Of a DNA stretch of 23,292 nucleotides, positions 4,571-23,120 are shown piece by piece. Positions within the stretch are counted from its first letter, which is position 1, and the number at the start of each line of letters is the position of its first letter. This stretch comes from a virus. A program made the translations under genes and the position numbers. The DNA lies in IMG/VR virus record IMGVR_UViG_3300047359_000577, positions 1 through 23,292 of that record; one strand, written 5' to 3'. A model generated the notes under the pieces. The model did no database searches, had not been told where the DNA came from, and saw only the letters and a list, made by a program, of their open reading frames with translations.

Positions 4571-4578
4571 TATTTATC
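4571..4578 (-). promoter_or_regulatory. Late promoter -10 element for the gp14 operon
   Basis: The minus strand reads GATAAATA, directly after the TAG stop of the endonuclease gene. With T4 late-promoter geometry the start site falls near 4565, giving a leader of about 14 nt that contains AAGGAG before the gp14 GTG. This supports a separate late transcript for gp14, lysozyme, the small ORF, gp15 and Nudix. Confidence 0.75.
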
Positions 4579-6821: not shown

Positions 6822-8066
6822 ATGTTAGCACCAATAAATCTTTTCTACCAATACCACGTACCATCCATTAACGCCATCCAATCTTTATTTAATCAGGTAG
6901 TCGAAGATCATCATGATGCTCTTTTACAGGCAGATCAAATTTGTGCATATGTTCTTGTTGAGCCTTTTCATGTGACAGCCAAGGATCATATCACATACAT
7001 TATAATGCCAGTGATCGAAAAACTTCAAGACACATATAAAAATTTAAGTAAAGAAAGTATATTTTTAACTAATACTGCTGTTAAACCTCTTGATCTGCCC
7101 CACATAACACACATAATCATAGATACATTTAGACTGTACTCTTATTTTCAAAATAATTATAATTTGGATTACGAGTATAAACCTCTGAATCATATCTCGA
7201 ATACTAAAAAGTTTTTATGTAAGTTTGGAAAGTTTAACAAAAGATCTAGTTATATTTTATTTTGTCTGCTCAAAGACTCTCAAATGTTCGACAGCAATCT
7301 GGGAAATTGGAGTCTTGCGCTTGAAGACAACGATAAGTACAAATTAAATTTTACCAATACATCCAGGCATCGTCATAACTGGAATGACACCCCACTGTAT
7401 AGTTTCAATGACATAGAACCATATTTAAACATTTTGCCTGATGTAAATTATACTGATATTTTGAACAATAACAATCCTGACAGAGTTTTTACGTTTCATT
7501 ACACTGGATATCCTTTCAGTATTACAGAATATCAAAATACTTTATTCAGTATTGTTCGTGAAACAACTGATCAAGATTATGCTGGTACATGGGTTACAGA
7601 AAAAACTTGGCGTCCAATTTCTATAAAACATCCCATAATGCTTTATGGCCAACCCAGGCTAGCACAACATTTGCTTGATTTAGGATATAGATCTCCAGAT
7701 TATTTTTCATTGTGTTCATTGGGTTTGGATGAACAAGACCAATGCAATATTTCAAACTATAAAAATGCGCAGATATTATTTAAAAACTGTTTTGACAAAT
7801 TTATCAATGCGTCCCAGCAGAACTTACAAGACATCGTGGATCATAACTACAATTTGTATTTAACTCATGTGAATGAAGATATTAACAAACTGTCTGGGTA
7901 TACCGCTGTGTGTAACTGGACAACCCATCCCAGATGTGTATCTAGCCAATCGTTATTAGAATTCGTCCTGAGAGAGCATTATTATAATTCTTCACTAGAA
8001 AAAAATTGTAAAAATTTCGATTTCGATACCATATCAGAAAAATTTGATATTCTCTTATCTCGATAA
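6822..8066 (+). CDS. Glycosyltransferase-like protein (tentative), AT-rich accessory gene
   Basis: The 414-residue soluble protein is AT-rich, with many Asn, Tyr, Phe and Ile codons, and looks foreign next to its neighbours. The clearest block is SIVRETTDQ followed by TWVTEKTWRPISIKHPIMLYG (residues about 247-276, TEKTWRP at 259-265) and then LAQHLLDLGYRSPDYF. A pattern of ET, TEKT-x-RPI, a hydrophobic G-turn, then LxxLGF/Y is found in uncharacterised proteins of phages and polysaccharide clusters, and resembles the donor-binding region of fucosyltransferase-like enzymes. No DxD motif stands out. The start codon touches the previous stop (TAAATG) with AAGG 8 nt upstream, so it has no promoter of its own. 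Its stop lies inside the late promoter of gp13. Sugar transfer to host or virion is an inference. Confidence 0.4.
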   Translation: MLAPINLFYQYHVPSINAIQSLFNQVVEDHHDALLQADQICAYVLVEPFHVTAKDHITYIIMPVIEKLQDTYKNLSKESIFLTNTAVKPLDLPHITHIIIDTFRLYSYFQNNYNLDYEYKPLNHISNTKKFLCKFGKFNKRSSYILFCLLKDSQMFDSNLGNWSLALEDNDKYKLNFTNTSRHRHNWNDTPLYSFNDIEPYLNILPDVNYTDILNNNNPDRVFTFHYTGYPFSITEYQNTLFSIVRETTDQDYAGTWVTEKTWRPISIKHPIMLYGQPRLAQHLLDLGYRSPDYFSLCSLGLDEQDQCNISNYKNAQILFKNCFDKFINASQQNLQDIVDHNYNLYLTHVNEDINKLSGYTAVCNWTTHPRCVSSQSLLEFVLREHYYNSSLEKNCKNFDFDTISEKFDILLSR

Positions 8067-8069
8067 ATA
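8062..8069 (+). promoter_or_regulatory. Late promoter -10 element for gp13
   Basis: GATAAATA overlaps the TAA stop (8064-8066) of the upstream gene. The predicted start near 8075 leaves a leader of about 13 nt that contains the AGGAG of gp13. It drives gp13, the small ORF and dNMP kinase. Confidence 0.78.
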
Positions 8070-9758: not shown

Positions 9759-9766
9759 GATAAATA
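9759..9766 (+). promoter_or_regulatory. Late promoter -10 element for the tail sheath gene
   Basis: GATAAATA lies 27 nt before ATG 9794. The predicted start near 9772 gives a leader of about 22 nt with AAGGAG (9781-9786) well placed. The terminator at 12675-12698 would end this transcript, making gp18 a single-gene unit. The rest of the gap 9690-9793 holds no gene. Confidence 0.8.
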
Positions 9767-9793
9767 TTGCTAACTTATTCAAGGAGAGTTATT

Positions 9794-12655
9794 ATGGCAA
9801 CATTAGTATCCCCGGGTGTAAGTATTAGCGTAACTGACGAAAGTTTTTACGCCAGCGTAGGTGCAGGCACTATTCCGCTTATTATTGTAGCAACAGCGGC
9901 TAATAAGACCTCATCAGATGGCACAGGTATTGCAGAATACACTAAGCCTGAGAATGCTGGTAAAGTATATAATATCTCTAGTCAGCGCGAATTACTTATT
10001 AATTATGGAAACCCAACATTTTACACCACTGGCGGAACTCCGCTACATGGTTACGAGCTAAACGAGTATGGTCTGGAAGCAGCCAGAAGTTATTTAGGCT
10101 TTGCTAATCAGGCATATGTTCTTAGAGCTGACATTGATTTAGCTAAACTAGAGCCAAGTGCGACACCACCTACAGAAGCACCTGAAGATGGTCAATACTG
10201 GTTAGACACAGGAAAAACAACCTGGGGTGTTAAGCGCTATGTAAACGGTGCGTGGACATTCATTGAAACCACTGAGGTACCTGTGGCAGATATAACTGCA
10301 GATGGCGTACCCACAACAGCATATGGTGTAGATTTTGATATCGGTGTAATTTACTACAACACTGACGGAACAACACGAGATGTAATTAACATCTGTGAAA
10401 GACGATCAGGAGCCTGGTTTGTCATAGGCGAAGCTACTTGGAATACTGCAACAAGTAATCGATTAATGATTGGCACACACCTAAACATACCATCAGGCAA
10501 TAGACCCGATGGATCACCATTGCAAACCAATGATATATATTTGCAAACAAGTACACCCAATCAAGGCACCACAATTGATATTAAGGTGTACAGTTCCGCA
10601 ACTGGTGAGTGGTTGTCTGACGACATAATCGGGTCTCAGTACAGCAGCGCAGCTTGGGCATATTACAACCAACAGGGTGGCCCAGTTGACGGTGATTTAT
10701 GGGCTGATTATGATGAGACTCCTGAAGCACGTATCCAACTTCGCCGTTGGGATAGTGATTTGGGTACAAATGTAAACATTTTTTACAGTTCTGTAATTCC
10801 AACAACTGATCCTTTGTTTGATTTAACTAACCATATTAACAATGCTGGCACAGCAGCAATGTGGATTTCTATCAACGACAGTGGTGTGTTCGATCCCAAC
10901 GGATACATTCCTGTATACTTTACTTCAGATGCTAACAACGATGGTTTTGCTAGCCTTAGTGATGCGGTGTCTGACATCAATAATAGTATATCAGGAGCAA
11001 CTAACATCAACTTGCGTGACAAGCTCAGAGCTGAGATTGTAAACGGTAATCAGATCAAGTTTACTCAGGCTGATGGCTTTGCGGTTAAGTTCTTCCAGGG
11101 AAGTATTGCTGGATGGTCACCTGCGGTTTTAGGTTTGGAATTTGGTACATTTGGTCAACCTAATTCAACACCAGGCTACTCAGAATGGCAGCCACTTAGC
11201 TACGTTAGTGAACCTAATGCGCCATTGGGCGATATTGCTGACAAAACTTTGTGGTACGACAATGTAATTAGTACAACTAATTTAGATTTGTTGATTAACA
11301 CAGGAACAGCTTGGGCAACATTCTCAGGCGATAAGCAAATTGCAGTATTAGCTCCAACATCACGAACTGATGGCACTCCATTGTTAAACGGTGATGTTTG
11401 GATTAGCACTGATAATTTAGATTTGTACCCACAAGTTTATCGTTGGTTAAGTGGTGCTTGGGTATTGCTTGATAATGCTGATCAAGAAACATCCACCGGT
11501 ATAGTTTATGGTGATTTTAGAGCTACTGATGCATCTCCATTGTTTAGCGACGCTCCAAATCCCCTGTTATACCCAGCTTCAACTAGCCCATATGTGGGAA
11601 TTCTTGCTTGGAATATGATTGCCAGTGGCGGCACAATCCGTCAGTGGGATGAGAGTGAGGGACGTTGGAGAACAGTGAGCGGTCTTCAGGCAGATGGTTC
11701 ACCCAACATGTTACGTCACGCACAACGTTCAATGGTTGTCGAGGCTATGCAGGCAGCAGTAAATGCTAACGAAGATATCCGCAATGAAGGCTTGAGATTT
11801 AATCTAATCGGCTGTCCTAACTATACAGAAATGATGGACGAAATGGTTAGCTTAAACGTAGACCGCAAAGAGACTGCATTTGTAGTTGGTGATACACCAA
11901 TGCGTCTGGCAGCAGACAACACTAGCATCACAGAGTGGGCTACTAACGCAAACAATGCCGCAGCAAATGGCGAGGAAGGATTAACAGTAGCTAACCCATA
12001 CGCCGCTGTGTACTACCCAAGCGCGTTAACTTCAGGTCTAGACGGCACAGACATCATGGTGCCACCGAGCCACATGATTCTCAGAACCATGGCTTACAAC
12101 GACCAGGTGGCTTATCCTTGGTTTGCGCCAGCAGGCTATCAGCGTGGTTTGGTAAGCAACGCAACAAGCGTTGGTTATCTGGATGCTGAAACTTCAGAGT
12201 ACAAACCTGTAGCACTGAGCCAAGGCCAGCGTGACAATCTGTACATCAACAAGATCAATCCAATTGGCACATTTACTGGCCGAGGTATTGTAGTGTTTGG
12301 ACAAAAAACACTCAACCCAGTAGCCAGTGCTTTGGATCGTGTAAACGTTGCACGTTTGGTTAACTATATCCGTGACAGACTGGATGAGGCAATGCGCCCG
12401 TTCTTGTTTGAGCCAAACGATGATATCACACGTCAGAACGCTAAGACCACAGTTGACAGATTCCTGGGACAATTAGTGACGTCCAGAGGTTTGTTTGACT
12501 TCCTGACAGTATGTGATAGCTCCAACAACACACCAGATCGTATTGATCGTAACGAACTATGGGTTGACATTGCTATACAGCCTGTTAAGTCTATCGAGTT
12601 CATCTACGTTCCAATCAGAATCCAGAACACACTGGGCGAGACTGGTAGTAACTGA
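9794..12655 (+). CDS. gp18: Tail sheath protein, T4 gp18 homologue with large modular insert
   Basis: Subunit of the contractile sheath. The frame opens at a TTG at 9767, but ATG 9794 with AAGGAG 7 nt upstream is the start, giving 953 residues against 659 in T4. The N-terminus (VSPGVSISVTDESFYASV) and C-terminus (NYIRDRLDEAMRPFLFEPND, then VDRFLGQLVTSRGLFDF and IAIQPVKSIEFIYVPIRIQN) are typical of sheath proteins. Between about residues 120 and 635 lies an insert of degenerate modules of the form G-D-x-W/Y ... G-x-W. In T4 gp18 the variable outer domain is in the corresponding N-terminal part, so the insert probably sits on the outside of the tail. The gene has its own late promoter and terminator, fitting the high copy number of sheath. 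Confidence 0.93.
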   Translation: MATLVSPGVSISVTDESFYASVGAGTIPLIIVATAANKTSSDGTGIAEYTKPENAGKVYNISSQRELLINYGNPTFYTTGGTPLHGYELNEYGLEAARSYLGFANQAYVLRADIDLAKLEPSATPPTEAPEDGQYWLDTGKTTWGVKRYVNGAWTFIETTEVPVADITADGVPTTAYGVDFDIGVIYYNTDGTTRDVINICERRSGAWFVIGEATWNTATSNRLMIGTHLNIPSGNRPDGSPLQTNDIYLQTSTPNQGTTIDIKVYSSATGEWLSDDIIGSQYSSAAWAYYNQQGGPVDGDLWADYDETPEARIQLRRWDSDLGTNVNIFYSSVIPTTDPLFDLTNHINNAGTAAMWISINDSGVFDPNGYIPVYFTSDANNDGFASLSDAVSDINNSISGATNINLRDKLRAEIVNGNQIKFTQADGFAVKFFQGSIAGWSPAVLGLEFGTFGQPNSTPGYSEWQPLSYVSEPNAPLGDIADKTLWYDNVISTTNLDLLINTGTAWATFSGDKQIAVLAPTSRTDGTPLLNGDVWISTDNLDLYPQVYRWLSGAWVLLDNADQETSTGIVYGDFRATDASPLFSDAPNPLLYPASTSPYVGILAWNMIASGGTIRQWDESEGRWRTVSGLQADGSPNMLRHAQRSMVVEAMQAAVNANEDIRNEGLRFNLIGCPNYTEMMDEMVSLNVDRKETAFVVGDTPMRLAADNTSITEWATNANNAAANGEEGLTVANPYAAVYYPSALTSGLDGTDIMVPPSHMILRTMAYNDQVAYPWFAPAGYQRGLVSNATSVGYLDAETSEYKPVALSQGQRDNLYINKINPIGTFTGRGIVVFGQKTLNPVASALDRVNVARLVNYIRDRLDEAMRPFLFEPNDDITRQNAKTTVDRFLGQLVTSRGLFDFLTVCDSSNNTPDRIDRNELWVDIAIQPVKSIEFIYVPIRIQNTLGETGSN
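10165..11690 (+). repeat. Degenerate repeated modules inside the sheath insert
   Basis: About seven diverged copies of a 30-40-residue unit can be lined up by eye. Their starts read APEDGQYWLDTG, DIGVIYYNTDG, PLQTNDIYLQTST, PVDGDLWADYDE, DIADKTLWYDN, PLLNGDVWISTDN and VGILAWNM, and most end in an aromatic turn such as VNGAWTFI, RSGAWFVI, ATGEWLS, LSGAWVLL or SEGRWRTV. The pattern suggests small beta modules repeated in tandem with spacers. Boundaries are approximate and the nucleotide copies have diverged. Confidence 0.6.
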
Positions 12656-12742: not shown

Positions 12743-12750
12743 GATAAATA
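12743..12750 (+). promoter_or_regulatory. Late promoter -10 element for gp19
   Basis: GATAAATA lies downstream of the gp18 terminator. The predicted start near 12756 gives a leader of about 32 nt with AGGAG (12775-12779) before ATG 12788. Confidence 0.8.
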
Positions 12751-15094: not shown

Positions 15095-15570
15095 GATTTC
15101 ACAAGGGCAAGTATCAGGTGCAGAACTCAGAAAAATATGTGGGTAACAAAGCACCCATATTCAGAAGCAGTTGGGAAAACACCTTTTGTAGAATGTGTGA
15201 TGAGAATGAAAACATCACACGCTGGGGCTCAGAGTGCGTGGAAATACCCTACCGCTCTCCACTGGACAATCGCTGGCACAAATACTACCCAGACTTCTTA
15301 ATACAGTACATTGACAACGACGGCAAAGAGCATGTTGAGCTCATAGAGATTAAACCCTCAGGTCAGAGCACATTTGAGAGTGCTCGTAGCACCAAAGAGA
15401 AACAACAGGTAGTCCTTAACAGTGCCAAGTGGGAAGCTGCACAGGAATGGTGTAAGCGCAAGGGTATATTCTTTAGAGTAGTTAACGAAGAGCATATCTT
15501 CATGGCTAAAAAGAAGAAGAAAGCACCTCGCAAAGCCAAGAAGCGCATAACTCCCAAGCGCCGTAAATAA
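15091..15570 (+). CDS. gp4: Head completion protein, T4 gp4 homologue
   Basis: T4 gp4 acts late in head maturation, before tail joining. The fold resembles a PD-(D/E)XK nuclease: FRSSWENTFCRMCDENENI, then EIPYRSPLDNRWHKYYPDF (Asp in the YYPDF strand), then VELIEIKPSGQS, where the E-x-K pair sits, and a helix KEKQQVVLNSAKWEAAQEWC. These correspond to the RSSWE, YPDF and EIKP blocks of the gp4 family. The C-terminus is a long basic tail (MAKKKKKAPRKAKKRITPKR), longer than needed for the fold and suited to DNA contact. It overlaps the previous gene by 4 nt. Confidence 0.85.
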   Translation: MRFHKGKYQVQNSEKYVGNKAPIFRSSWENTFCRMCDENENITRWGSECVEIPYRSPLDNRWHKYYPDFLIQYIDNDGKEHVELIEIKPSGQSTFESARSTKEKQQVVLNSAKWEAAQEWCKRKGIFFRVVNEEHIFMAKKKKKAPRKAKKRITPKRRK

Positions 15571-15573
15571 ATA
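15566..15573 (+). promoter_or_regulatory. Late -10 element (AATAAATA) ending 5 nt before an ATG
   Basis: AATAAATA overlaps the gp4 stop (15568-15570) and is followed by GTGTC and the ATG at 15579. With T4 late geometry the +1 base would be the A of the ATG, giving a leaderless message. The first base differs from the usual GATAAATA here. Confidence 0.55.
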
Positions 15574-15578
15574 GTGTC

Positions 15579-15806
15579 ATGGCCTCATTTAATATAACAC
15601 AATCTGATATACCTGGAGCTAAACCTTCTGAAGGCGACGACTGTATTCTCAAGAAGACCGATCCTATGTATAACTTCGCCTATAAAGGCAAACTTCGTCT
15701 CAAAGGACTGGAAGACATTGAGCCAGGCTCATACAAGATCCCAGTGATAGACGGAATATCCAGCAAGAAACCCAAGCCCCCGCCTCAGATACTCACAGAG
15801 GGATAA
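15579..15806 (+). CDS. Small protein of unknown function upstream of gp16 (75 aa)
   Basis: Product MASFNITQSDIPGAKPSEGD..., with a beta-like middle (YNFAYKGKLRLKG and PGSYKIPVIDG) and a proline-rich end (KPKPPPQILTEG). No family is recognised. There is no Shine-Dalgarno; the ATG is preceded by a late -10 element 5 nt away, so leaderless initiation is likely, or coupling to gp4, whose stop is 8 nt upstream. The gp16 ATG follows 1 nt after its stop. The position suggests a role near head completion or packaging. Confidence 0.6.
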   Translation: MASFNITQSDIPGAKPSEGDDCILKKTDPMYNFAYKGKLRLKGLEDIEPGSYKIPVIDGISSKKPKPPPQILTEG

Positions 15807-15807
15807 C

Positions 15808-16323
15808 ATGACAAAAAAATTGGAAGAATTATTTAACATCGGCCCAGTTGACGACGAGTCAGAGACTGAACTTGTGGAACCTGACTTTGATGATGACATG
15901 GTGGAAGTAAATGCTGAAACTGAGATCATGGAAATTACGGAAGCCATGGAGATATCAAATCGTATCAATAGTGCCTTAGCAGAAGTTCGTGGCATGGAAG
16001 AGCATGACGGCGAAATGGATGAGATAGCACAAAAAGCCCTGGACAACTTTGACCAACTCATGAGTTTGGGCATGAACCTCACTGACATGGCAGCAGGACC
16101 AGTGTTTGGCAGTGCTACTCAGATGCTTAAAGTAGCATTGGACGCCAGAGACTCAAAGGTTAACCGCAAATTAAAACAAGTAGACATGATGATCAAGAAA
16201 GCAAACCTAGATCATCGCAAAGACACTGCCAAAGGTGGCGATGCGCAAGAAATTCAGCCCAATGTATATGACAGAAACGAACTTCTTAAAATGCTAGGTG
16301 GCGATGAATTCCCAAAAGATTAA
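15808..16323 (+). CDS. gp16: Terminase small subunit, T4 gp16 homologue
   Basis: Small terminase regulates packaging by gp17 and recognises DNA for the first cut. The 171-residue protein has the gp16 layout: an acidic N-terminal part (ESETELVEPDFDDDMVEV), a central coiled-coil helix pair (QKALDNFDQLMSLGMNLTD, then FGSATQMLKVALDARDSKVNRKLKQVDMMIKKANLDHRK) and a short C-terminal tail with NELLKMLGGDEF. In T4 the central helices form the ring oligomer. AGAGGG precedes the ATG. In T4, gp16 and gp17 are adjacent; here four genes (16304-19385) separate them. Confidence 0.82.
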   Translation: MTKKLEELFNIGPVDDESETELVEPDFDDDMVEVNAETEIMEITEAMEISNRINSALAEVRGMEEHDGEMDEIAQKALDNFDQLMSLGMNLTDMAAGPVFGSATQMLKVALDARDSKVNRKLKQVDMMIKKANLDHRKDTAKGGDAQEIQPNVYDRNELLKMLGGDEFPKD

Positions 16324-17188
16324 AAAACATAGCAGACTAATCACATGTGGATCATCCTTTTGCAACACAATTCGTAATACGTGTTTTACATATGGTGAAT
16401 TGATAAGTCAAAATTTAGGTATACTTTTTGATGATATGTCTATGCCAGGTTGTAGTAATTTCGACATATTTTGTCAGGTAAAAAAATATTTGAAAAACAT
16501 AAAAATTTATGACGACAAATTTATGGTTCCTGGAAATGTTATAACAGCGGATCGGATACCCTTCAGAGAAGATACAGATGTTTTATTAATAACTTTCACT
16601 GACATTCATAAAATATCTGCTTACTATCATGAACCAGTGGGTATTCCTGGTGCAATTTCTAGAAATGCAATTATAGAATTATACAAACTATTAGAAGAAC
16701 ATAACGTTACTTATTTCTTTACTACATCACATGTAGATTATAGGTATATGGATTTGCCTCTGGAAATACAAGATAAGTTTCTGCTGAATAATTTTGATAG
16801 GTCTACATTAGTAGATATTTTATATTTTACCCAAAAGAGTAACTTATCTTTACCGTTGCCTTATGATCTGTCTAAGTACACCAAAGTCTCAGATTTTCAT
16901 GATAAGATGCCGCCTAGTAATACTAACAAATTTTTAAGCAACGATAACAAAAATGAACCGTCAGAGCAAGGACATAAATTTATAGCCGCCCAGATATCAC
17001 ATGGTATTGCTAGTAAATTAGACATGGATTTAGCAGAAAGTTATTACAATAACAATTATAACATCTATTATAATGATGACTTTTATTTAAATTCCAGTTC
17101 AGATTCTGATGCAAAATTTTCTCATCACCAAGAGCCCTTCAACATTAAAAAATATATTTTTAGATCAAATAAATACAAAGGAAGATAA
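16304..17188 (+). CDS. SGNH/GDSL-hydrolase-like protein 1, AT-rich accessory gene
   Basis: The 294-residue protein begins RLITCGSSFCNT (11-22), where Ser in CGSSF fits the block I nucleophile, then has MPGCSNFDIFCQV (GCSN at 49-52, the block II Gly/Asn region), a strand VLLITFTDIHK in the block III position, and late EPSEQGHKF (His224), fitting the block V His. The block III Asn is not clear and the usual Asp before His is Ser or Glu. SGNH enzymes are esterases or acyl-transferring enzymes on sugars and lipids; the substrate is unknown. The ATG lies inside gp16 (20-nt overlap, AGGTGG just upstream). The gene is strongly AT-rich and rich in Asn, Tyr and Phe. Its stop falls in the next late promoter. 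Confidence 0.55.
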   Translation: MNSQKIKKHSRLITCGSSFCNTIRNTCFTYGELISQNLGILFDDMSMPGCSNFDIFCQVKKYLKNIKIYDDKFMVPGNVITADRIPFREDTDVLLITFTDIHKISAYYHEPVGIPGAISRNAIIELYKLLEEHNVTYFFTTSHVDYRYMDLPLEIQDKFLLNNFDRSTLVDILYFTQKSNLSLPLPYDLSKYTKVSDFHDKMPPSNTNKFLSNDNKNEPSEQGHKFIAAQISHGIASKLDMDLAESYYNNNYNIYYNDDFYLNSSSDSDAKFSHHQEPFNIKKYIFRSNKYKGR

Positions 17189-17191
17189 ATA
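17184..17191 (+). promoter_or_regulatory. Late promoter -10 element upstream of the 244-aa gene
   Basis: GATAAATA overlaps the TAA (17186-17188) of the SGNH-like gene. The predicted start near 17197 gives a 20-nt leader with GGAG at 17207-17210. A second, weaker AATAAATA lies at 17168-17175. Confidence 0.78.
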
Positions 17192-17216
17192 GTCTTACAA
17201 ATGATTGGAGTTACCA

Positions 17217-17951
17217 ATGGAACTAAAAAGTTTTTTATCTGAGAGTTTTCTCAAAGAGTATTACTACCGTGTAAAGATAGCGCACGATTGTGGTGATGCT
17301 CAGATGGAGCAACTCGAAAGATGTTTAAGCAAGTACAATCCCGAAAGCATTGCTCCCTGGAATGTACGTCCTCTGGAAGAGAATCCCATAGAGTTTACTC
17401 GTTCCAAGCACGTAGAGTTTATTTCAGAAGTAAGTAGTACTGACATCGTATTAAAGTATCCTTGTCAGCCCAGAGTTTTAGAAGTATGGATTGCTACTAA
17501 CATGGGTTTACCTCATGAGCGTGTACTATGCTATGACATCAAAGAGCCTCGCAGATTGGAAGCAGATATTGCGGCTGACAGACATCAGAACGATGTTGAG
17601 CGTTATGCTGTGGCAGAAGACTCAGAAATGTCTACAGAAGATCAGGAACACTACAAAGTACAAAATGCTAGTTGGGTTGAAGGCCAGGATGTTAAGAATA
17701 CCTGGTATGGTGAGACATACAACAAGAAGTTCCTGGAGACACTCCAAGCAATTAAAGCAGAAAAAGGCGCAGATTATTTCCGCCACTATCCCAGCAAAGA
17801 TGAAATCATGGGAGACGCCCTCAAGCCAACTTGGGACGAGCTCAACATGGGTGTCAACATGGGTAAAGGTGTTGAGAATGGTAAGCAAGTGGATACAGTT
17901 AGTCAGAGCGCAAGCAGAGCTAGTTCCACAATGAAAGCAGGTAGCCCCTAA
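17217..17951 (+). CDS. Phage protein of unknown function with possible capsid-targeting N-terminus (244 aa)
   Basis: A TTG at 17205 opens the frame, but ATG 17217 with GGAG 6 nt upstream is the likely start. The product begins MELKSFLSESFLKEYYYRVK. The Lys-x-Phe-Leu-x-Glu pattern resembles the T4 capsid-targeting peptide MKTYQEFIAEA, with a possible gp21 cleavage site L7-S8-E9. The rest contains FTRSKHVEFISEV, CQPRVLEVWIATNMGLP and KKFLETLQAIKAEKGADYF, and a disordered Ser/Thr/Gly-rich end. It has its own late promoter and is followed 11 nt later by another gene with a similar N-terminus. I do not recognise the body of the protein; a head-internal or assembly role is inferred from the N-terminus only. 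Confidence 0.6.
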   Translation: MELKSFLSESFLKEYYYRVKIAHDCGDAQMEQLERCLSKYNPESIAPWNVRPLEENPIEFTRSKHVEFISEVSSTDIVLKYPCQPRVLEVWIATNMGLPHERVLCYDIKEPRRLEADIAADRHQNDVERYAVAEDSEMSTEDQEHYKVQNASWVEGQDVKNTWYGETYNKKFLETLQAIKAEKGADYFRHYPSKDEIMGDALKPTWDELNMGVNMGKGVENGKQVDTVSQSASRASSTMKAGSP

Positions 17952-17962
17952 GGAATAATATT

Positions 17963-18895
17963 ATGAACGATATCGAATTAAACAAAAAACTTATCAACCT
18001 CATGGAATCTGCCATGACAGAGAAGAAAAAACCAGACACAAATAAGAATGGTATTCCTGATTATGCAGAAGACGGCGAAGGTCCAAACGATCTTGCTAAA
18101 GGCAAGAAGGTAGACGAGGCCCATCCTGGTCCCAAATCAGAACCTTCCAAGCAAAGCGTTAAGTGTAAAGACGCAGATGGAAAAGAGTATACTAAAACTG
18201 TCACGGCTGTGAACCCCACTGCCGCCAGTAAGCAAGTTAAAGCCAAGCTACCCAAAGGCCATACAGTAATGGGATCTACTAAAGTTACTGAAGCTGATGA
18301 GAAAATGCCTAGCAAAGCTGAAGTCATGAAGTGCTGTAAAGACGGCATGAGTGTGTCAGAGATTTGCAAAAAGTATCCTGACTGTGATCAAGCCAAGCTC
18401 AAAGAGATGTGCAAGACCTGTAAGGAAGAGCACAAAGAAAAAGAAAAGACTGACGAGAGTTTTAATCAGTTGGCAGGTTCACTGCGCCAGAAGTTAGACG
18501 CCATGATGAACGAAAACCAAACTGCGTCAACTTCAAGTATGCCCCAGAAATCACCACCAGTGCTGGACAACGAAGGCGTAAACGGCTACGAAGATTACAT
18601 GGTAGGCGAAGAAGAAGAAACTGACGAGGCAGTCCTGGACGAAGCAGAGCTGGACGAGATGGCTGAGATGATGCGCATGGCTGGTCTGGTAAGCGAAGAA
18701 GATGACACTGAACGTGATGACCACGCTGAGAAGGCTGGACGCGAAGTAGCACATGACATGGAGTACGACGATGGACATGATGCTGAAGACGATGATCACG
18801 ACGAGAAAGAAGGACGTCATGTTGCCAAGGATATCGAGTTCGACGAGAAAGAACACGAAGCCATGAAGAGCATACTTCAGAAGTTAATGAAGTAA
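17963..18895 (+). CDS. Acidic protein with capsid-targeting-like N-terminus, Cys cluster and tandem repeat (310 aa)
   Basis: The N-terminus reads NKKLINLMESAMTEKKK, with a candidate gp21 site L13-M14-E15. Residues 25-37 (DTNKNGIPDYAED) look like a thrombospondin-3 or dockerin-type calcium loop. Residues 116-155 hold a helix-turn-helix-like stretch with six Cys (124, 125, 135, 141, 150, 153), possibly a metal site. The C-terminal third is very acidic and contains a 19-residue unit twice (252-270, DDHAEKAGREVAHDMEYDD; 277-295, DDHDEKEGRHVAKDIEFDE). AAGGA precedes the ATG. The final codons and 3' flank are duplicated at 19387-19437. It may be an internal head or core protein; the function is unknown. 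Confidence 0.65.
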   Translation: MNDIELNKKLINLMESAMTEKKKPDTNKNGIPDYAEDGEGPNDLAKGKKVDEAHPGPKSEPSKQSVKCKDADGKEYTKTVTAVNPTAASKQVKAKLPKGHTVMGSTKVTEADEKMPSKAEVMKCCKDGMSVSEICKKYPDCDQAKLKEMCKTCKEEHKEKEKTDESFNQLAGSLRQKLDAMMNENQTASTSSMPQKSPPVLDNEGVNGYEDYMVGEEEETDEAVLDEAELDEMAEMMRMAGLVSEEDDTERDDHAEKAGREVAHDMEYDDGHDAEDDDHDEKEGRHVAKDIEFDEKEHEAMKSILQKLMK

Positions 18896-18909
18896 ATTCA
18901 CAACATCCT
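18859..18909 (+). repeat. 51-bp direct repeat, copy 1
   Basis: Covers the last codons (A-MKSILQKLMK, stop) of the 310-aa gene and 14 nt beyond. It matches 19387-19437 at 50 of 51 positions; the only difference is T at 18898 against C at 19426. The copies are 528 bp apart and flank the 147-aa gene. Confidence 0.95.
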
Positions 18910-18941
18910 AGTATACAACAACAGACTAGAGGAAAGGAATA

Positions 18942-19385
18942 ATGGAAAATAACATGCGTAAACTGATTAATATCATGGAATCAGCTTTAGCAGAAGCTAA
19001 AAAATATCCTGAGCCCCACACGCCTGAGTATGAACAACTTCATGCGGCATTCAGGGAATTGGGATTTGCCAGAAAATATAGCGATGAGCATTATAGACAG
19101 CTTCATACATACAGCCAAGAAAACAAAGAAAAGTTTTTGCAACAATTGGCTGGTAAATTGGGTGCGCCAGTAAAAGTAATAGACGGTGTGCCATTGACCA
19201 AAGAACAAGATTCTTGGGAATATCGAATGGCTAACGAACCTTGGCATCCACTTGCTATGTACAATGAGCGATCTGGTCAACGCTCAGTAGAGGATATTCG
19301 GGCCATGATTGTGGCTATGGATAAATCTCTTGCTAATTTAATGCAGAAACATGGTGTGCATACACAACCATTTAATTTCAAATAG
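18942..19385 (+). CDS. Inserted gene with capsid-targeting-like N-terminus (147 aa)
   Basis: Starts MENNMRKLINIMESALAEAKK, sharing the KLIN-(L/I)-MESA core with the preceding 310-aa protein and offering a gp21-type site I11-M12-E13. The rest is a different, mainly helical protein: YEQLHAAFRELGFARKYSD, RQLHTYSQENKEKFLQQLAGKLG, a short VKVIDGVPL strand and DIRAMIVAMDKSLANLMQ. AAAGGA lies just before ATG 18942. The gene is bracketed by a 51-bp direct repeat, so it looks like an insertion between the 310-aa gene and that gene's original terminator. The body is not recognised. A packaged internal protein is possible if the N-terminus is a true targeting peptide. Confidence 0.65.
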   Translation: MENNMRKLINIMESALAEAKKYPEPHTPEYEQLHAAFRELGFARKYSDEHYRQLHTYSQENKEKFLQQLAGKLGAPVKVIDGVPLTKEQDSWEYRMANEPWHPLAMYNERSGQRSVEDIRAMIVAMDKSLANLMQKHGVHTQPFNFK

Positions 19386-19386
19386 T

Positions 19387-19437
19387 AGCCATGAAGAGCA
19401 TACTTCAGAAGTTAATGAAGTAAATCCACAACATCCT
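19387..19437 (+). repeat. 51-bp direct repeat, copy 2, with relic of the 310-aa gene's 3' end
   Basis: Starts 2 nt after the stop of the 147-aa gene and contains the last codons and TAA (19421-19423) of the 310-aa gene with no open frame leading into them, so it is a gene-end relic. The terminator at 19439-19462 follows directly and was probably the original terminator of the 310-aa gene. Confidence 0.93.
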
Positions 19438-19438
19438 G

Positions 19439-19462
19439 AATGCCCCTGCAGGGGCATTTTTT
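19439..19462 (+). terminator. Rho-independent terminator before gp17
   Basis: AATGCCCC pairs with GGGGCATT (8 bp, TGCA loop), with six T at 19457-19462. It ends the upstream late transcripts only 16 nt before the gp17 ATG. Confidence 0.92.
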
Positions 19463-19465
19463 ATC

Positions 19466-19473
19466 ACTAAATA
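19466..19473 (+). promoter_or_regulatory. Late -10 element (ACTAAATA) for gp17, 5 nt before the ATG
   Basis: ACTAAATA is followed by ATTAC and the ATG at 19479. It is the only promoter-like element between the terminator and gp17. With T4 late geometry the message starts at the A of the ATG. Confidence 0.6.
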
Positions 19474-19478
19474 ATTAC

Positions 19479-21047
19479 ATGGCAGCCAAAGGCACAGCAG
19501 ACACTAGTTTAGTAAAACAACCATTCTCGCAGTTTGAGTATGATAGCACAACTCTCAGAGAGTTTCAGAAGTGCTGTGATCCACTGGACGGTGCACTATA
19601 CTTCATGGAAAACTTTATGTGGATACAACACCCCATAAAAGGATCCATGCAGTTTAAGCCTTTTCCCTATCAGTTGGCACTCATAGAAAACTATAACAAA
19701 TACAGATATAGTATCAACATGCTGGGCAGACAGATGGGTAAGACTACTGTAGCCGCCGGATACTTGTTGTGGTACGCTATGTTCAAGCCTGACTCAACCA
19801 TACTAGTAGCATCAAACAAAGGCGCCAATGCGTCAGAGATTATGCAACGTGTGAGATATGCCTATGAGAACTGTCCTGATCATATCAGAGCAGGCGCCAC
19901 AGAATACAACAAAGGCAGTATAAGTTTTGACAATGGTAGCAGAATTGTAAGTAGCACAACCACAGAGACCACAGGACGAGGTATGTCCATAACACTTGTG
20001 TACCTGGATGAGTTTGCGTTTGTCAGAAATACCATTGCCAAAGAGTTTTGGACTTCACTGTCACCCACACTAGCAACTGGTGGTAAGGCTATTATTACAT
20101 CAACACCTAACTCAGACGATGATCAGTTTGCGTTAATTTGGAAAGCCGCCAACAAGATGCAGGACGAATACGGCAACCCCAAAGACGTGGGCGTCAACGG
20201 ATTCAGACCCTTGCTAGCAACCTGGGACGAGCACCCAGACAGAAATGCTGAATGGGCTGATACAGAACGTGCTAGCATTGGCGAAGAACGATTCAGACGA
20301 GAACACAACTGTGAGTTCCTGATCTTTGAAGAGACGCTCATAAACTCCATCAAACTCGCAGAGATGGAAGGCACAGAGCCTGTGCAGAAAACTGGACAAG
20401 TACGCTGGTATCGTAAGCCCAACCCCACTGCTATGTATAGCGTGAGTTTGGATCCCAGTGCTGGCACAGGTGGCGACTATGCGGCAATACAGGTCATGGA
20501 AGTAAACACACTTACTCAGATAGCAGAGTGGCAACACAACCAGACACCCATAGAGGGACAGGTTCGTACCATGCGAGACATCATGAACTACCTCAGAGAA
20601 GAAGGGGTATATCAGATCTACTGGAGCGTAGAGAACAACACCATAGGCGAAGCCGCACTGGTTACTATTCGTGACACGGGCGAGGAAAACTTTGCTGGAC
20701 AGTTTTTAACAGAGCCCAAACGCAGAGGCACAGCCAGACGTCGTGGCTTTACTACTACCCAACGCACCAAGAACGAATCTTGTGTGATGCTCAAGCGCAT
20801 GATAGAAGAGAAGATGATTGATGTACACAGCAAACAACTGATATCAGAGCTCAAAAACTTTATTGCCAAGGGCAACAGTTTTGCCGCAAAGATAGGCGAG
20901 CACGACGATCTAGTAATGAGTCTGCTACTAAACATTCGCATGATGGACTACATCGGTACGTTTGAGGAAGAAGTATACAATGTAATGCATAAAGGCATCA
21001 AGATGAACACAGATGTCGAAGATGAACCTTTACCGGTGATGTTCTAA
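19479..21047 (+). CDS. gp17: Terminase large subunit, T4 gp17 homologue
   Basis: ATP-driven packaging motor and headful nuclease. The frame is open from 19440, but that stretch is the terminator, so ATG 19479 is the start (522 residues; T4 has 610). The ATPase domain shows FPYQLALIENYNKYRY, Walker A GRQMGKTT (83-90), Walker B LVYLDEFAF (Asp177, Glu178) and the coupling motif IITSTPNS (206-213). The RNase H-like nuclease has SLDPSAGTGGDY (Asp325), WSVENNTIGEAA (Glu385) and GEHDDLVMSLLL (Asp476/477). All catalytic residues are present. No Shine-Dalgarno is visible, and the stop overlaps the next ATG (TAATG). Separation from gp16 by four genes is unlike T4. Confidence 0.96.
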   Translation: MAAKGTADTSLVKQPFSQFEYDSTTLREFQKCCDPLDGALYFMENFMWIQHPIKGSMQFKPFPYQLALIENYNKYRYSINMLGRQMGKTTVAAGYLLWYAMFKPDSTILVASNKGANASEIMQRVRYAYENCPDHIRAGATEYNKGSISFDNGSRIVSSTTTETTGRGMSITLVYLDEFAFVRNTIAKEFWTSLSPTLATGGKAIITSTPNSDDDQFALIWKAANKMQDEYGNPKDVGVNGFRPLLATWDEHPDRNAEWADTERASIGEERFRREHNCEFLIFEETLINSIKLAEMEGTEPVQKTGQVRWYRKPNPTAMYSVSLDPSAGTGGDYAAIQVMEVNTLTQIAEWQHNQTPIEGQVRTMRDIMNYLREEGVYQIYWSVENNTIGEAALVTIRDTGEENFAGQFLTEPKRRGTARRRGFTTTQRTKNESCVMLKRMIEEKMIDVHSKQLISELKNFIAKGNSFAAKIGEHDDLVMSLLLNIRMMDYIGTFEEEVYNVMHKGIKMNTDVEDEPLPVMF

Positions 21048-21847
21048 TGAAGAAAGATATACTTTTTGCAAATGGATGTAGTTTTACCTGGGGCGGTGCA
21101 TTAGAACCCTGGTTTATGTTTGTTGCTGGCATACCTTTGGGGGACATAATAGGCTATGATGCCAAAGATTTTATGACTGCTAACGGTTTTACAGGCAAGG
21201 AAAATTCAGCCGTGAGAGAACAATTACTATGGCCACATCATTTAGGTAATCTATTAGGATGTCATGATGTTGTAAACTTAGGCATGGGATGCGGATCAAA
21301 TCAGAGGATCATAAGAACTACTCTGGACTGGCTGTCAGCTCAGGACAGGCAAACCCTGGACCGAACCAGAGCAGTAATTCAATTAACTGAACCTGGCCGA
21401 TATGAATATTATGATCAGGAAAATGATTTTTGGACTAGATGTAAAGTTGATGTTTGTAAACAGAAAGGCGAAGATCAAGAAATTGCTCAAGAAAGAAACA
21501 TGTCAAGGCTTTCAACATTTACTAATCTTGAAGGAATATATAATTTTGTTAGTGATTGCATGGCTATAAATCAGATCATGACCTCCTTTGATGTAGAATA
21601 TCATATGTGGTGTCTGGTTAATCCTTTTGATAGAACTGACCCTGATTTTATGCATTTAAAAGATCTTATAAACAAATCGTGCTCATGGATAAATCAAACT
21701 ATGCTGGAAAGTTTATATGGTTCACTGGAAACTTTAAAAGCAGACAATGGACAAATTTCCACCGCCCCATCTTCTAACCATCCAGGAGTTGAAGGACACC
21801 AGGAGCTTGCAGAAATTTTGCATTTCTATATGTTAGCAAAGTCATGA
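21047..21847 (+). CDS. SGNH/GDSL-hydrolase-like protein 2, accessory gene
   Basis: The 266-residue protein starts MKKDILFANGCSFTWGG, with Ser12 in GCSF as candidate nucleophile, then VVNLGMGCGSNQRIIRTT (GCGSN 81-85, block II), a strand AVIQLTEPGRYEY (block III position, with Thr-Glu instead of the usual Asn motif) and SNHPGVEGHQELAEIL, where His245 or His251 fits block V. This GCSFT/GSN/HP-x-x-x-GH pattern occurs in uncharacterised SGNH-like proteins of marine phages. The substrate is not known; deacylation or acylation of a surface sugar is one option. It is translationally coupled to gp17 through TAATG, is AT-rich, and ends 3 nt before the next late promoter. It is only distantly similar to the SGNH-like protein at 16304-17188. 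Confidence 0.6.
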   Translation: MKKDILFANGCSFTWGGALEPWFMFVAGIPLGDIIGYDAKDFMTANGFTGKENSAVREQLLWPHHLGNLLGCHDVVNLGMGCGSNQRIIRTTLDWLSAQDRQTLDRTRAVIQLTEPGRYEYYDQENDFWTRCKVDVCKQKGEDQEIAQERNMSRLSTFTNLEGIYNFVSDCMAINQIMTSFDVEYHMWCLVNPFDRTDPDFMHLKDLINKSCSWINQTMLESLYGSLETLKADNGQISTAPSSNHPGVEGHQELAEILHFYMLAKS

Positions 21848-21850
21848 TCA

Positions 21851-21858
21851 GATAAATA
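21851..21858 (+). promoter_or_regulatory. Late -10 element (GATAAATA), 5 nt before an ATG
   Basis: GATAAATA is followed by CATAC and ATG 21864. The predicted +1 is the A of the ATG. No Shine-Dalgarno lies in the short gap after the upstream stop (21845-21847). Confidence 0.72.
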
Positions 21859-21863
21859 CATAC

Positions 21864-23120
21864 ATGATAGACGCAACGCTGGTGGGCGAAAAAATATTTA
21901 ACATTCTCAAGGGACAAGGCTTCATGGTCAAGAGTTATGATCGTGAGGGCAACCTTACCCTGGACGCTAGTGAAGCTACAAGATTTGCCGTGCCAGATCC
22001 CAATATACTGGTGCGTTATGACCAAGATACTCAGACTATTCAGCTTAAAACCTCATCAGACGTAGACGATGATGTCACCAGAACTATGCTGAAAAATCTG
22101 TCATCAGACAACCTCTTAAACTTTGATTATCGCAGATTTGAGAAGAAAGTTACGCCCAAGGGCGAACAAAACGACATAGCCGCTAGTAAGGAGCAAGAAG
22201 TGAATGACGTAATGGAAGGATTTGGAACCATGACTGGCACCTCCAAGTCAAGTTATCAGACTCTGGAGAATGTAAAATTAGTAGTTAGGCACTCCAAGCC
22301 AGTGAATGAAGAAAGTCGTGGTGCCCGTAGCAGAAATATTGAAAGCATTCATATCAGACGAGGTGGTGAATCATTTAAGATGAACGAAAACAATCTCAGA
22401 GCAGCCAGAGCCATGGCTAGACATATTCAGGAAGGCGGCGAGGTTTATGACTCTGTGGGCAATGCTATACAGCAGATGGCTACTGAGCATCGTGAACTCA
22501 GAGAGTTTGTGGGATATGTTCGTCGTAACAAATTAGTGTCAGAGTCCAATGTAAATTATGTTGACATGGCAGTTACTAACGTAAGCCAGATTCGTGAGAC
22601 ATTTGAGAGACTTGCCAGAGCAAAAACTTATGCGTCAGAGTCAGAGAACATTGTTAACCGTAGCCAGTCAGAAATGCTGGGAGAGGAAGAAGAGTTCCGT
22701 AGTGCCTTTACAGAAACTCACTATGATGACCGTGTAAGCGCCGCCATGGAAAGTATTCACAGAGCCATGGGTCGCCAAGCCGCTTATGAGAGTCACATTG
22801 AGTCAGCTATTGCTACTGAGTCATTCAGAAATTTGAAGAACATGGTGTCTGAAGATTTAATTGAATATGACACGCCACATGCACAACTAGGCTCATATGT
22901 AAACCAGTTATCACAGTGTTGTGAAGATAAGCAACTGAGTTCATTCCTTAAAACATGCGGATCAAAGATTTCAGAAGAAACTGAGCTTAGTGTGTTTGAA
23001 ATGAAAACAGTCAAAGGCTGTGTTAGCCAGGCACAGGACATCACTGAAAGTGTGAAAGCATACGATCACGGTCGAGCTTATGTGGATTTTATAGCAAACA
23101 TGGCTGTATTGCCAGCATAA
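21864..23120 (+). CDS. Conserved T4-like marine phage protein of unknown function (418 aa)
   Basis: The N-terminal domain (GEKIFNILKGQGFMVKSYDREG, split around the GQGF turn, then LDASEATRFAVPDPNILVRYD) matches a pattern I recall from conserved hypothetical proteins of T4-like cyanophages, so ATG 21864 is taken as the true start despite the absence of a Shine-Dalgarno. The next Met (residue 21) would remove part of this domain. The middle contains VKLVVRHSKPVNEESRGARSR and a helical stretch AARAMARHIQEGGEVYDSV. The C-terminal half is mostly helical, rich in Glu, Ser and Ala, with four Cys (CCEDKQ, LKTCGS, KGCVSQ). No enzyme motif is visible. Placement after gp17 suggests a late or virion role. 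Confidence 0.65.
   Translation: MIDATLVGEKIFNILKGQGFMVKSYDREGNLTLDASEATRFAVPDPNILVRYDQDTQTIQLKTSSDVDDDVTRTMLKNLSSDNLLNFDYRRFEKKVTPKGEQNDIAASKEQEVNDVMEGFGTMTGTSKSSYQTLENVKLVVRHSKPVNEESRGARSRNIESIHIRRGGESFKMNENNLRAARAMARHIQEGGEVYDSVGNAIQQMATEHRELREFVGYVRRNKLVSESNVNYVDMAVTNVSQIRETFERLARAKTYASESENIVNRSQSEMLGEEEEFRSAFTETHYDDRVSAAMESIHRAMGRQAAYESHIESAIATESFRNLKNMVSEDLIEYDTPHAQLGSYVNQLSQCCEDKQLSSFLKTCGSKISEETELSVFEMKTVKGCVSQAQDITESVKAYDHGRAYVDFIANMAVLPA

Follow-up and report, generated by a model that had tools for sequence, protein, structure and literature searches.

Late-promoter octamers five nucleotides before start codons point to leaderless mRNAs for one class of late genes in some T4-like phages

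Introduction

Late transcription in bacteriophage T4 is a textbook case, and its transcripts are expected to rely on Shine-Dalgarno (SD) sequences for translation. T4 late promoters, which carry the octamer TATAAATA and involve gp55, gp33 and gp45, are defined by a core motif, have no recognisable −35 requirement and serve late structural genes (PMC1524935, PMC2988020), with the octamer spanning positions −13 to −6 (PMC1524935). In this report, we focused on promoters that resemble them in all three respects in a 23.3-kb fragment of a T4-like phage represented solely by the IMG/VR record IMGVR_UViG_3300047359_000577, the whole of which (23,292 nucleotides, hereafter the window) was analysed. 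At three genes of the window, including the large terminase gene gp17, the octamer ends exactly 5 nt before the ATG, and these close-set promoters very probably yield leaderless mRNAs in one class of late genes.

Leaderless mRNAs, which begin with the start codon itself and lack an SD, are known from lambda cI transcribed from PRM, from Mycobacterium and from archaea, and ribosomes recognise their 5′-AUG (reportedly treated by Brock et al. 2008, cited in PMC5312081). The mRNAs predicted here are similar in both features, but they differ in that a whole late-gene class would be leaderless, beside SD-led genes that have the same type of promoter. The late promoter of the jumbo phage phiKZ, TATG, has a core that resembles the TATG found here at the start codon. 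However, phiKZ transcription starts on the G of TATG and depends on its own non-canonical polymerase (PMC4666361), which makes it a different mechanism, and a phiKZ-type promoter was rejected as an explanation on account of that start on G. Phage AR9, whose 5′ leaders measure 26–491 nt (PMC5312081), is different as well. The word "leaderless" is absent from the T4 late-transcription review, and in open-access full texts we found no earlier account of T4-like phages with leaderless late transcripts, subscription papers and preprints being outside the scope of the search; the novelty of the finding is therefore provisional.

Results

The close-set promoters of the window and the reading frames that they precede are the following.

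15566..15573, plus strand: late-promoter octamer AATAAATA, with TAAATA at 15568-15573, then GTGTC and the ATG at 15579
15579..15806, plus strand: 75-amino-acid open frame, predicted first cistron of a leaderless transcript
15808..16323, plus strand: small-terminase-like gene (phrog_16202, MTKKLEELFN...), second cistron, preceded by an SD-like GAGGG of its own
19438..19465, plus strand: terminator-like hairpin with a U-run (AATGCCCCTGCAGGGGCATTTTTTATC; ΔG −14.1 kcal/mol), adjoining the gp17 promoter on its 5′ side
19466..19473, plus strand: late-promoter octamer ACTAAATA, with TAAATA at 19468-19473, then ATTAC and the gp17 ATG at 19479
19479..21047, plus strand: gp17, large terminase (Terminase_6N/6C, phrog_36964), predicted leaderless
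21851..21858, plus strand: late-promoter octamer GATAAATA, with TAAATA at 21853-21858, then CATAC and the ATG at 21864
21864..23120, plus strand: virion structural protein (phrog_13484), predicted leaderless

The letters of the window bear out what a sequence-only reading had claimed, namely that TAAATA stands exactly 5 nt before the ATGs at 15579, 19479 and 21864 and that an SD is missing at all three. TAAATA by itself is hardly more frequent in the window than expected (29 copies against 21.2); TAAATA-N5-ATG followed by an open frame of at least 60 codons occurs three times, against a shift-null mean of 0.15 and a maximum of 2 in 2000 shifts. At the first site, the octamer contains the TAA stop of the upstream gene (15568-15570) and is overlapped by a second TAAATA at 15564-15569. 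This case is weaker than those of gp17 and 21864, and the gene status of 15579..15806 is uncertain, because a search for relatives of the 75-amino-acid frame found none. In 52 relatives, the promoter with 5-nt geometry directly adjoins the small-terminase-like orthologue; in the window, the 75-amino-acid frame sits between the two and may be a small inserted gene which captured the promoter. The geometry of the gene at 21864..23120 is common to 55 relatives.

The spacing was then read in 80 IMG/VR relatives of gp17 together with the window (81 sequences, 1.15 Mb; gene calls in uncultured contigs are mechanical). The distance from TAAATA to ATG shows a single sharp peak at 5 nt, with 252 occurrences over a background of about 25, or 211 against about 8 when an open frame of at least 60 codons is required. 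Removal of duplicates leaves 146 distinct sites at 5 nt, whereas neighbouring spacings have about 7 (typically 0–12), so the predicted peak in relatives was recovered strongly. Distances measured from the longer motif GATAAATA are bimodal, with 74 sites at 5 nt, two in total at 6–15 nt and a broad population from 16 nt onward. The control hexamers AAATAA, TAATAA, TAAAAT and TATAAT have no 5-nt peak in the 81 sequences. The absence of a peak for TATAAT led us to reject σ70-type leaderless starts, and chance or base composition was rejected on the shift-null, the other spacings and the control hexamers.

Since the pooled loci share genes, three large contigs of relatives (250.5 kb, 339.8 kb and 100 kb of 102 kb) were examined separately. 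They have 30, 20 and 13 genes at 5 nt, against shift-null means of 1.4, 1.4 and 0.4 and maxima of 6, 6 and 4; by open reading frame (ORF) calls, the class makes up about 31/267, 20/406 and 13/127 of their genes. These genes, many of them unrelated, include those for a gp13-like neck protein, the terminase, a baseplate wedge protein, a PAAR protein, a glutaredoxin, a cyclase and a radical-SAM protein, among others. The arrangement is thus not a design particular to packaging genes, as had been supposed, and it is found in many unrelated late genes. In relatives retrieved with the Pseudomonas jumbo phage PA5oct as query, a 5-nt peak (70 sites) is accompanied by a 7-nt peak (39 sites) and smaller ones at 4, 6 and 8 nt, a spread that affects the same genes and corresponds to leaders of 0–3 nt. 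Identical spacing in all leaderless cases, another part of that reading, therefore holds within the window, where all are at 5 nt, whereas in relatives 5 nt is the mode and the gaps range over 4–8 nt.

The two promoter settings differ in what surrounds them. An SD is present in 2% of genes at 5 nt and in 85% of genes with TAAATA farther upstream, a contrast that is partly forced because the close-set promoter fills the space that an SD would take. The octamers are TATAAATA-like with a variable first base: the two bases 5′ of the core, which is invariant through the selection of sites, are A or G and then A (86%). In bacteria, the usual initiator is a pyrimidine at −1 followed by a purine at +1. 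At the leadered promoters with an SD (n=183), positions 5 and 6 after TAAATA are T in 66% and A in 66%, and this initiator pair falls exactly where T or C and the A of the ATG stand in the 5-nt class. In that class, 99% of 198 sites have T or C just before the ATG, compared with 47% of other genes, and the 64 sites listed for the three contigs all have a pyrimidine there. Because the T4 octamer lies at −13 to −6, +1 would fall 5 nt further on, on the A of the ATG, in agreement with the T4 placement (PMC1524935, PMC2988020). Together with the T(−1)A(+1) initiator at leadered promoters, this indicates that transcripts of the 5-nt class most likely begin on the A of the ATG. The placement of +1 on this A by the sequence-only reading is thus supported, at the level of sequence, by the spacing peak, the lack of SDs, the conserved protein starts and the initiator.

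At gp17 itself, relatives are conserved from the residue after the initiator Met, or from residue 3–4, onward (MxxGTADTSLVK), from which it follows that the gp17 ATG is right; conserved protein starts do not lie downstream of the ATG. A terminator scan of the window missed the hairpin before the gp17 promoter, which is revealed by folding and also occurs in two relatives, L002 (with a changed loop sequence) and L125. Its position suggests that gp17 has an independent transcript. In a gp17 tree, 102 of 175 sequences have the motif 4–7 nt before the start, with about 14 changes. Eight sequences (L006, L007, L008, L013, L014, L020, L026 and L032) have TAAATA-CTAGC-ATGGAGCAATTAC-ATG upstream of gp17. 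In this subclade, the 5-nt ATG is kept, out of frame, and heads a 13-nt leader with GGAG that runs to the gp17 ATG, a possible switch between leaderless and SD-led modes on one promoter.

The design extends beyond the window lineage, as judged from motif positions at depositor-annotated starts in cultured phages. Among the TAAATA-preceded genes examined, the motif stands 4–8 nt before the start in 13 of 31 in the Pelagibacter phage HTVC008M (9 at exactly 5 nt) and in 7 of 32 in the Pelagibacter phage Mosig (6 at exactly 5 nt), but in none of 16 in T4, 9 in Syn9 and 16 in P-SSM2. In HTVC008M and Mosig, the 5-nt ATGs coincide with the starts given by the depositors. The genes concerned in HTVC008M include baseplate gp25 and the tail tube cap, and relatives of this gp25 (baseplate wedge) have the motif close before the ATG, without an SD, in essentially all 80 IMG/VR matches listed. 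These two pelagimyophages share the geometry of the window, and the mode is exactly 5 nt in both HTVC008M and the window lineage. However, they are Kyanoviridae and form a separate lineage, their gp17 is about 30% identical to that of the window, and it is not leaderless. When TAAATA-N5-ATG is counted over whole records, it does not clearly outnumber the reversed pattern in Syn9, P-SSM2, GAP32, Phosso, PA5oct, 121Q, Vibrio 2.275 and AG-345 phages; T4 has 10 against 5 reversed, none of them at the annotated late-region starts checked, and in phage Melnitz the counts are too low to call. A general T4-like trait was rejected on these counts and on the annotated starts.

Promoters with leaders are also found in the window, as follows.

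8064..8069, plus strand: leadered late promoter of a gp13-like gene; ATG 8088, 18 nt, AGGAG
9761..9766, plus strand: leadered late promoter of the long ORF 9767-12655, presumed from synteny with PA5oct to be the tail sheath gene; ATG 9794, 27 nt, AAGGAG
12745..12750, plus strand: leadered late promoter of a tail-tube gene; ATG 12788, 37 nt, AGGAG
17186..17191, plus strand: leadered late promoter of gene 17217; ATG 17217, 25 nt, GGAG
4571..4576, minus strand: leadered late promoter of a virion structural gene; GTG 4550, 20 nt, AAGGAG

That the octamer elsewhere stands 18–37 nt upstream, with an SD in the leader, had also been proposed, and it holds at these five promoters, four on the plus strand and one on the minus strand; for the "gp14" example, no exact TAAATA was recovered.

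Homologues of gp55 are present in two large contigs of relatives (E-values 4e-17 and 2e-17); in the window, with its 23 kb, none was to be expected. Among phage-borne translation factors, IF3 is absent from all eight phage records searched, and an S21-like ribosomal protein is present in six of them (G002, G003, G014, G015, PA5oct and HTVC008M). S21 is uncorrelated with the trait because PA5oct has S21 without the pattern and G001 has the pattern without S21; both factors were rejected as correlates. A special second codon was also rejected, GCA and other NCN codons being equally frequent in leadered late genes.

The window itself belongs with PA5oct-related T4-like phages, both by its T4-type terminase and by its gene order. 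Its gp17 is 57% identical to the PA5oct terminase and less than that to those of all other phages in the annotated collection, and the two share the order Ad2, dNMP kinase, sheath, tube, tube, head closure, terminase and structural protein. A scan of genomes for a host gave just two phage-bearing bins of metagenome-assembled genomes, labelled Rickettsiales and Gammaproteobacteria (56% identity), and naming a host from them was dropped because the matches are too weak. The end of gene 17963-18895 (18869-18895) plus the following sequence (GCCATGAAGAGCATACTTCAGAAGTTAATGAAGTAAAT.CACAACATCCT) is repeated nearly exactly after ORF 18942-19385 (at 19391-19441), which suggests a duplication event as the origin of the ORF's insertion. 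A protein with CHASE2 and nucleotide-cyclase domains is apparently encoded by distant T4-like phages, each time with 5-nt geometry: L088:3349-5415 (minus strand), a 690-amino-acid gene of G002 and HTVC008M gp019 at 11972. The domains were shown in G001, the HTVC008M assignment is the depositors' annotation, and the G002 gene was matched just by length and N-terminus.

Discussion

One type of late promoter appears to serve genes in two ways. The octamers are best read as T4-type late promoters, presumably recognised by the RNA polymerase of the host together with a late sigma factor of the phage that resembles gp55. Where the promoter is close-set, as in one class of late genes, +1 would be the A of the start codon itself (in distant relatives, a base no more than about 3 nt from it), and the resulting mRNA would be leaderless, with ribosomes initiating on its 5′-terminal AUG unaided by an SD. 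Genes of the other class have this promoter about 16 nt or more upstream, with an SD in the leader. The transcript start, the leaderless translation and the role of gp55 at these sites are what we infer from the arrangement of motifs and genes, and we hold this account with high, though not complete, confidence.

Other explanations have to be weighed against it. The pattern might be an artefact of chance, of stop codons overlapping the motif through its TAA, or of one inherited sequence counted repeatedly, and the stop inside the motif at 15568 and the dominance of three gene families among the pooled relatives lend this some colour. Nevertheless, shift-null values and other spacings are far lower within single contigs that hold many unrelated genes, related hexamers have no 5-nt peak and the pattern recurs in a separate cultured lineage, all of which make an artefact very hard to credit. 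It is also improbable, though less so, that TAAATA-N5-ATG is an AU-rich enhancer acting in RNA as a translation-start signal on transcripts begun farther upstream. Short intergenic gaps would fit the operon read-through that this implies, but the same motif, when far upstream and followed by an SD, carries a T(−1)A(+1) initiator for which an RNA enhancer has no need, and at gp17, in the window, L002 and L125, terminator-like hairpins stand between the motif and the genes before it. The more serious alternative, still unlikely in our view, is that these are real promoters whose transcripts begin 1–4 nt upstream of the ATG and have very short leaders instead of none. T4-type transcription start sites can be imprecise, and in the relatives retrieved with PA5oct the same genes have gaps of 4, 6, 7 and 8 nt besides 5. 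However, the window lineage and HTVC008M both have their mode at exactly 5 nt, the initiator pair falls precisely there, and leaders of 1–4 nt would still demand translation that is independent of an SD.

Some observations weigh against leaderless transcription from close-set late promoters. The pooled counts are weighted to the three gene families, although the results for single contigs and HTVC008M are independent of them. Many 5-nt genes of the three contigs begin just 4–40 nt past an upstream stop, and read-through transcripts may therefore also cover them. The gp45 clamp was not found by sequence-similarity search in the contigs or in PA5oct, and neither it nor the gp33 coactivator, both of which may be diverged, was detected there with T4-type profiles; the late-transcription apparatus may therefore differ from that of T4.

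A broader proposal is that marine T4-like phages use leaderless late mRNAs deliberately, as a second class of translation. Either a particular group of hosts, perhaps SAR11 or Alphaproteobacteria related to it, or a ribosome that the phage alters late in infection would favour this class, and one promoter type would serve two differently regulated sets of virion proteins. We regard this proposal as speculative and, on balance, unlikely. HTVC008M and P. ubique HTCC1062, a phage and host in culture, allow the pattern to be tested directly. If about a tenth of the genes in some abundant aquatic T4-like phages do start leaderless, their starts would be misplaced by gene callers and promoter predictors designed to expect an SD or a leader, and host ribosomes would have to initiate efficiently on 5′-terminal AUGs during infection.

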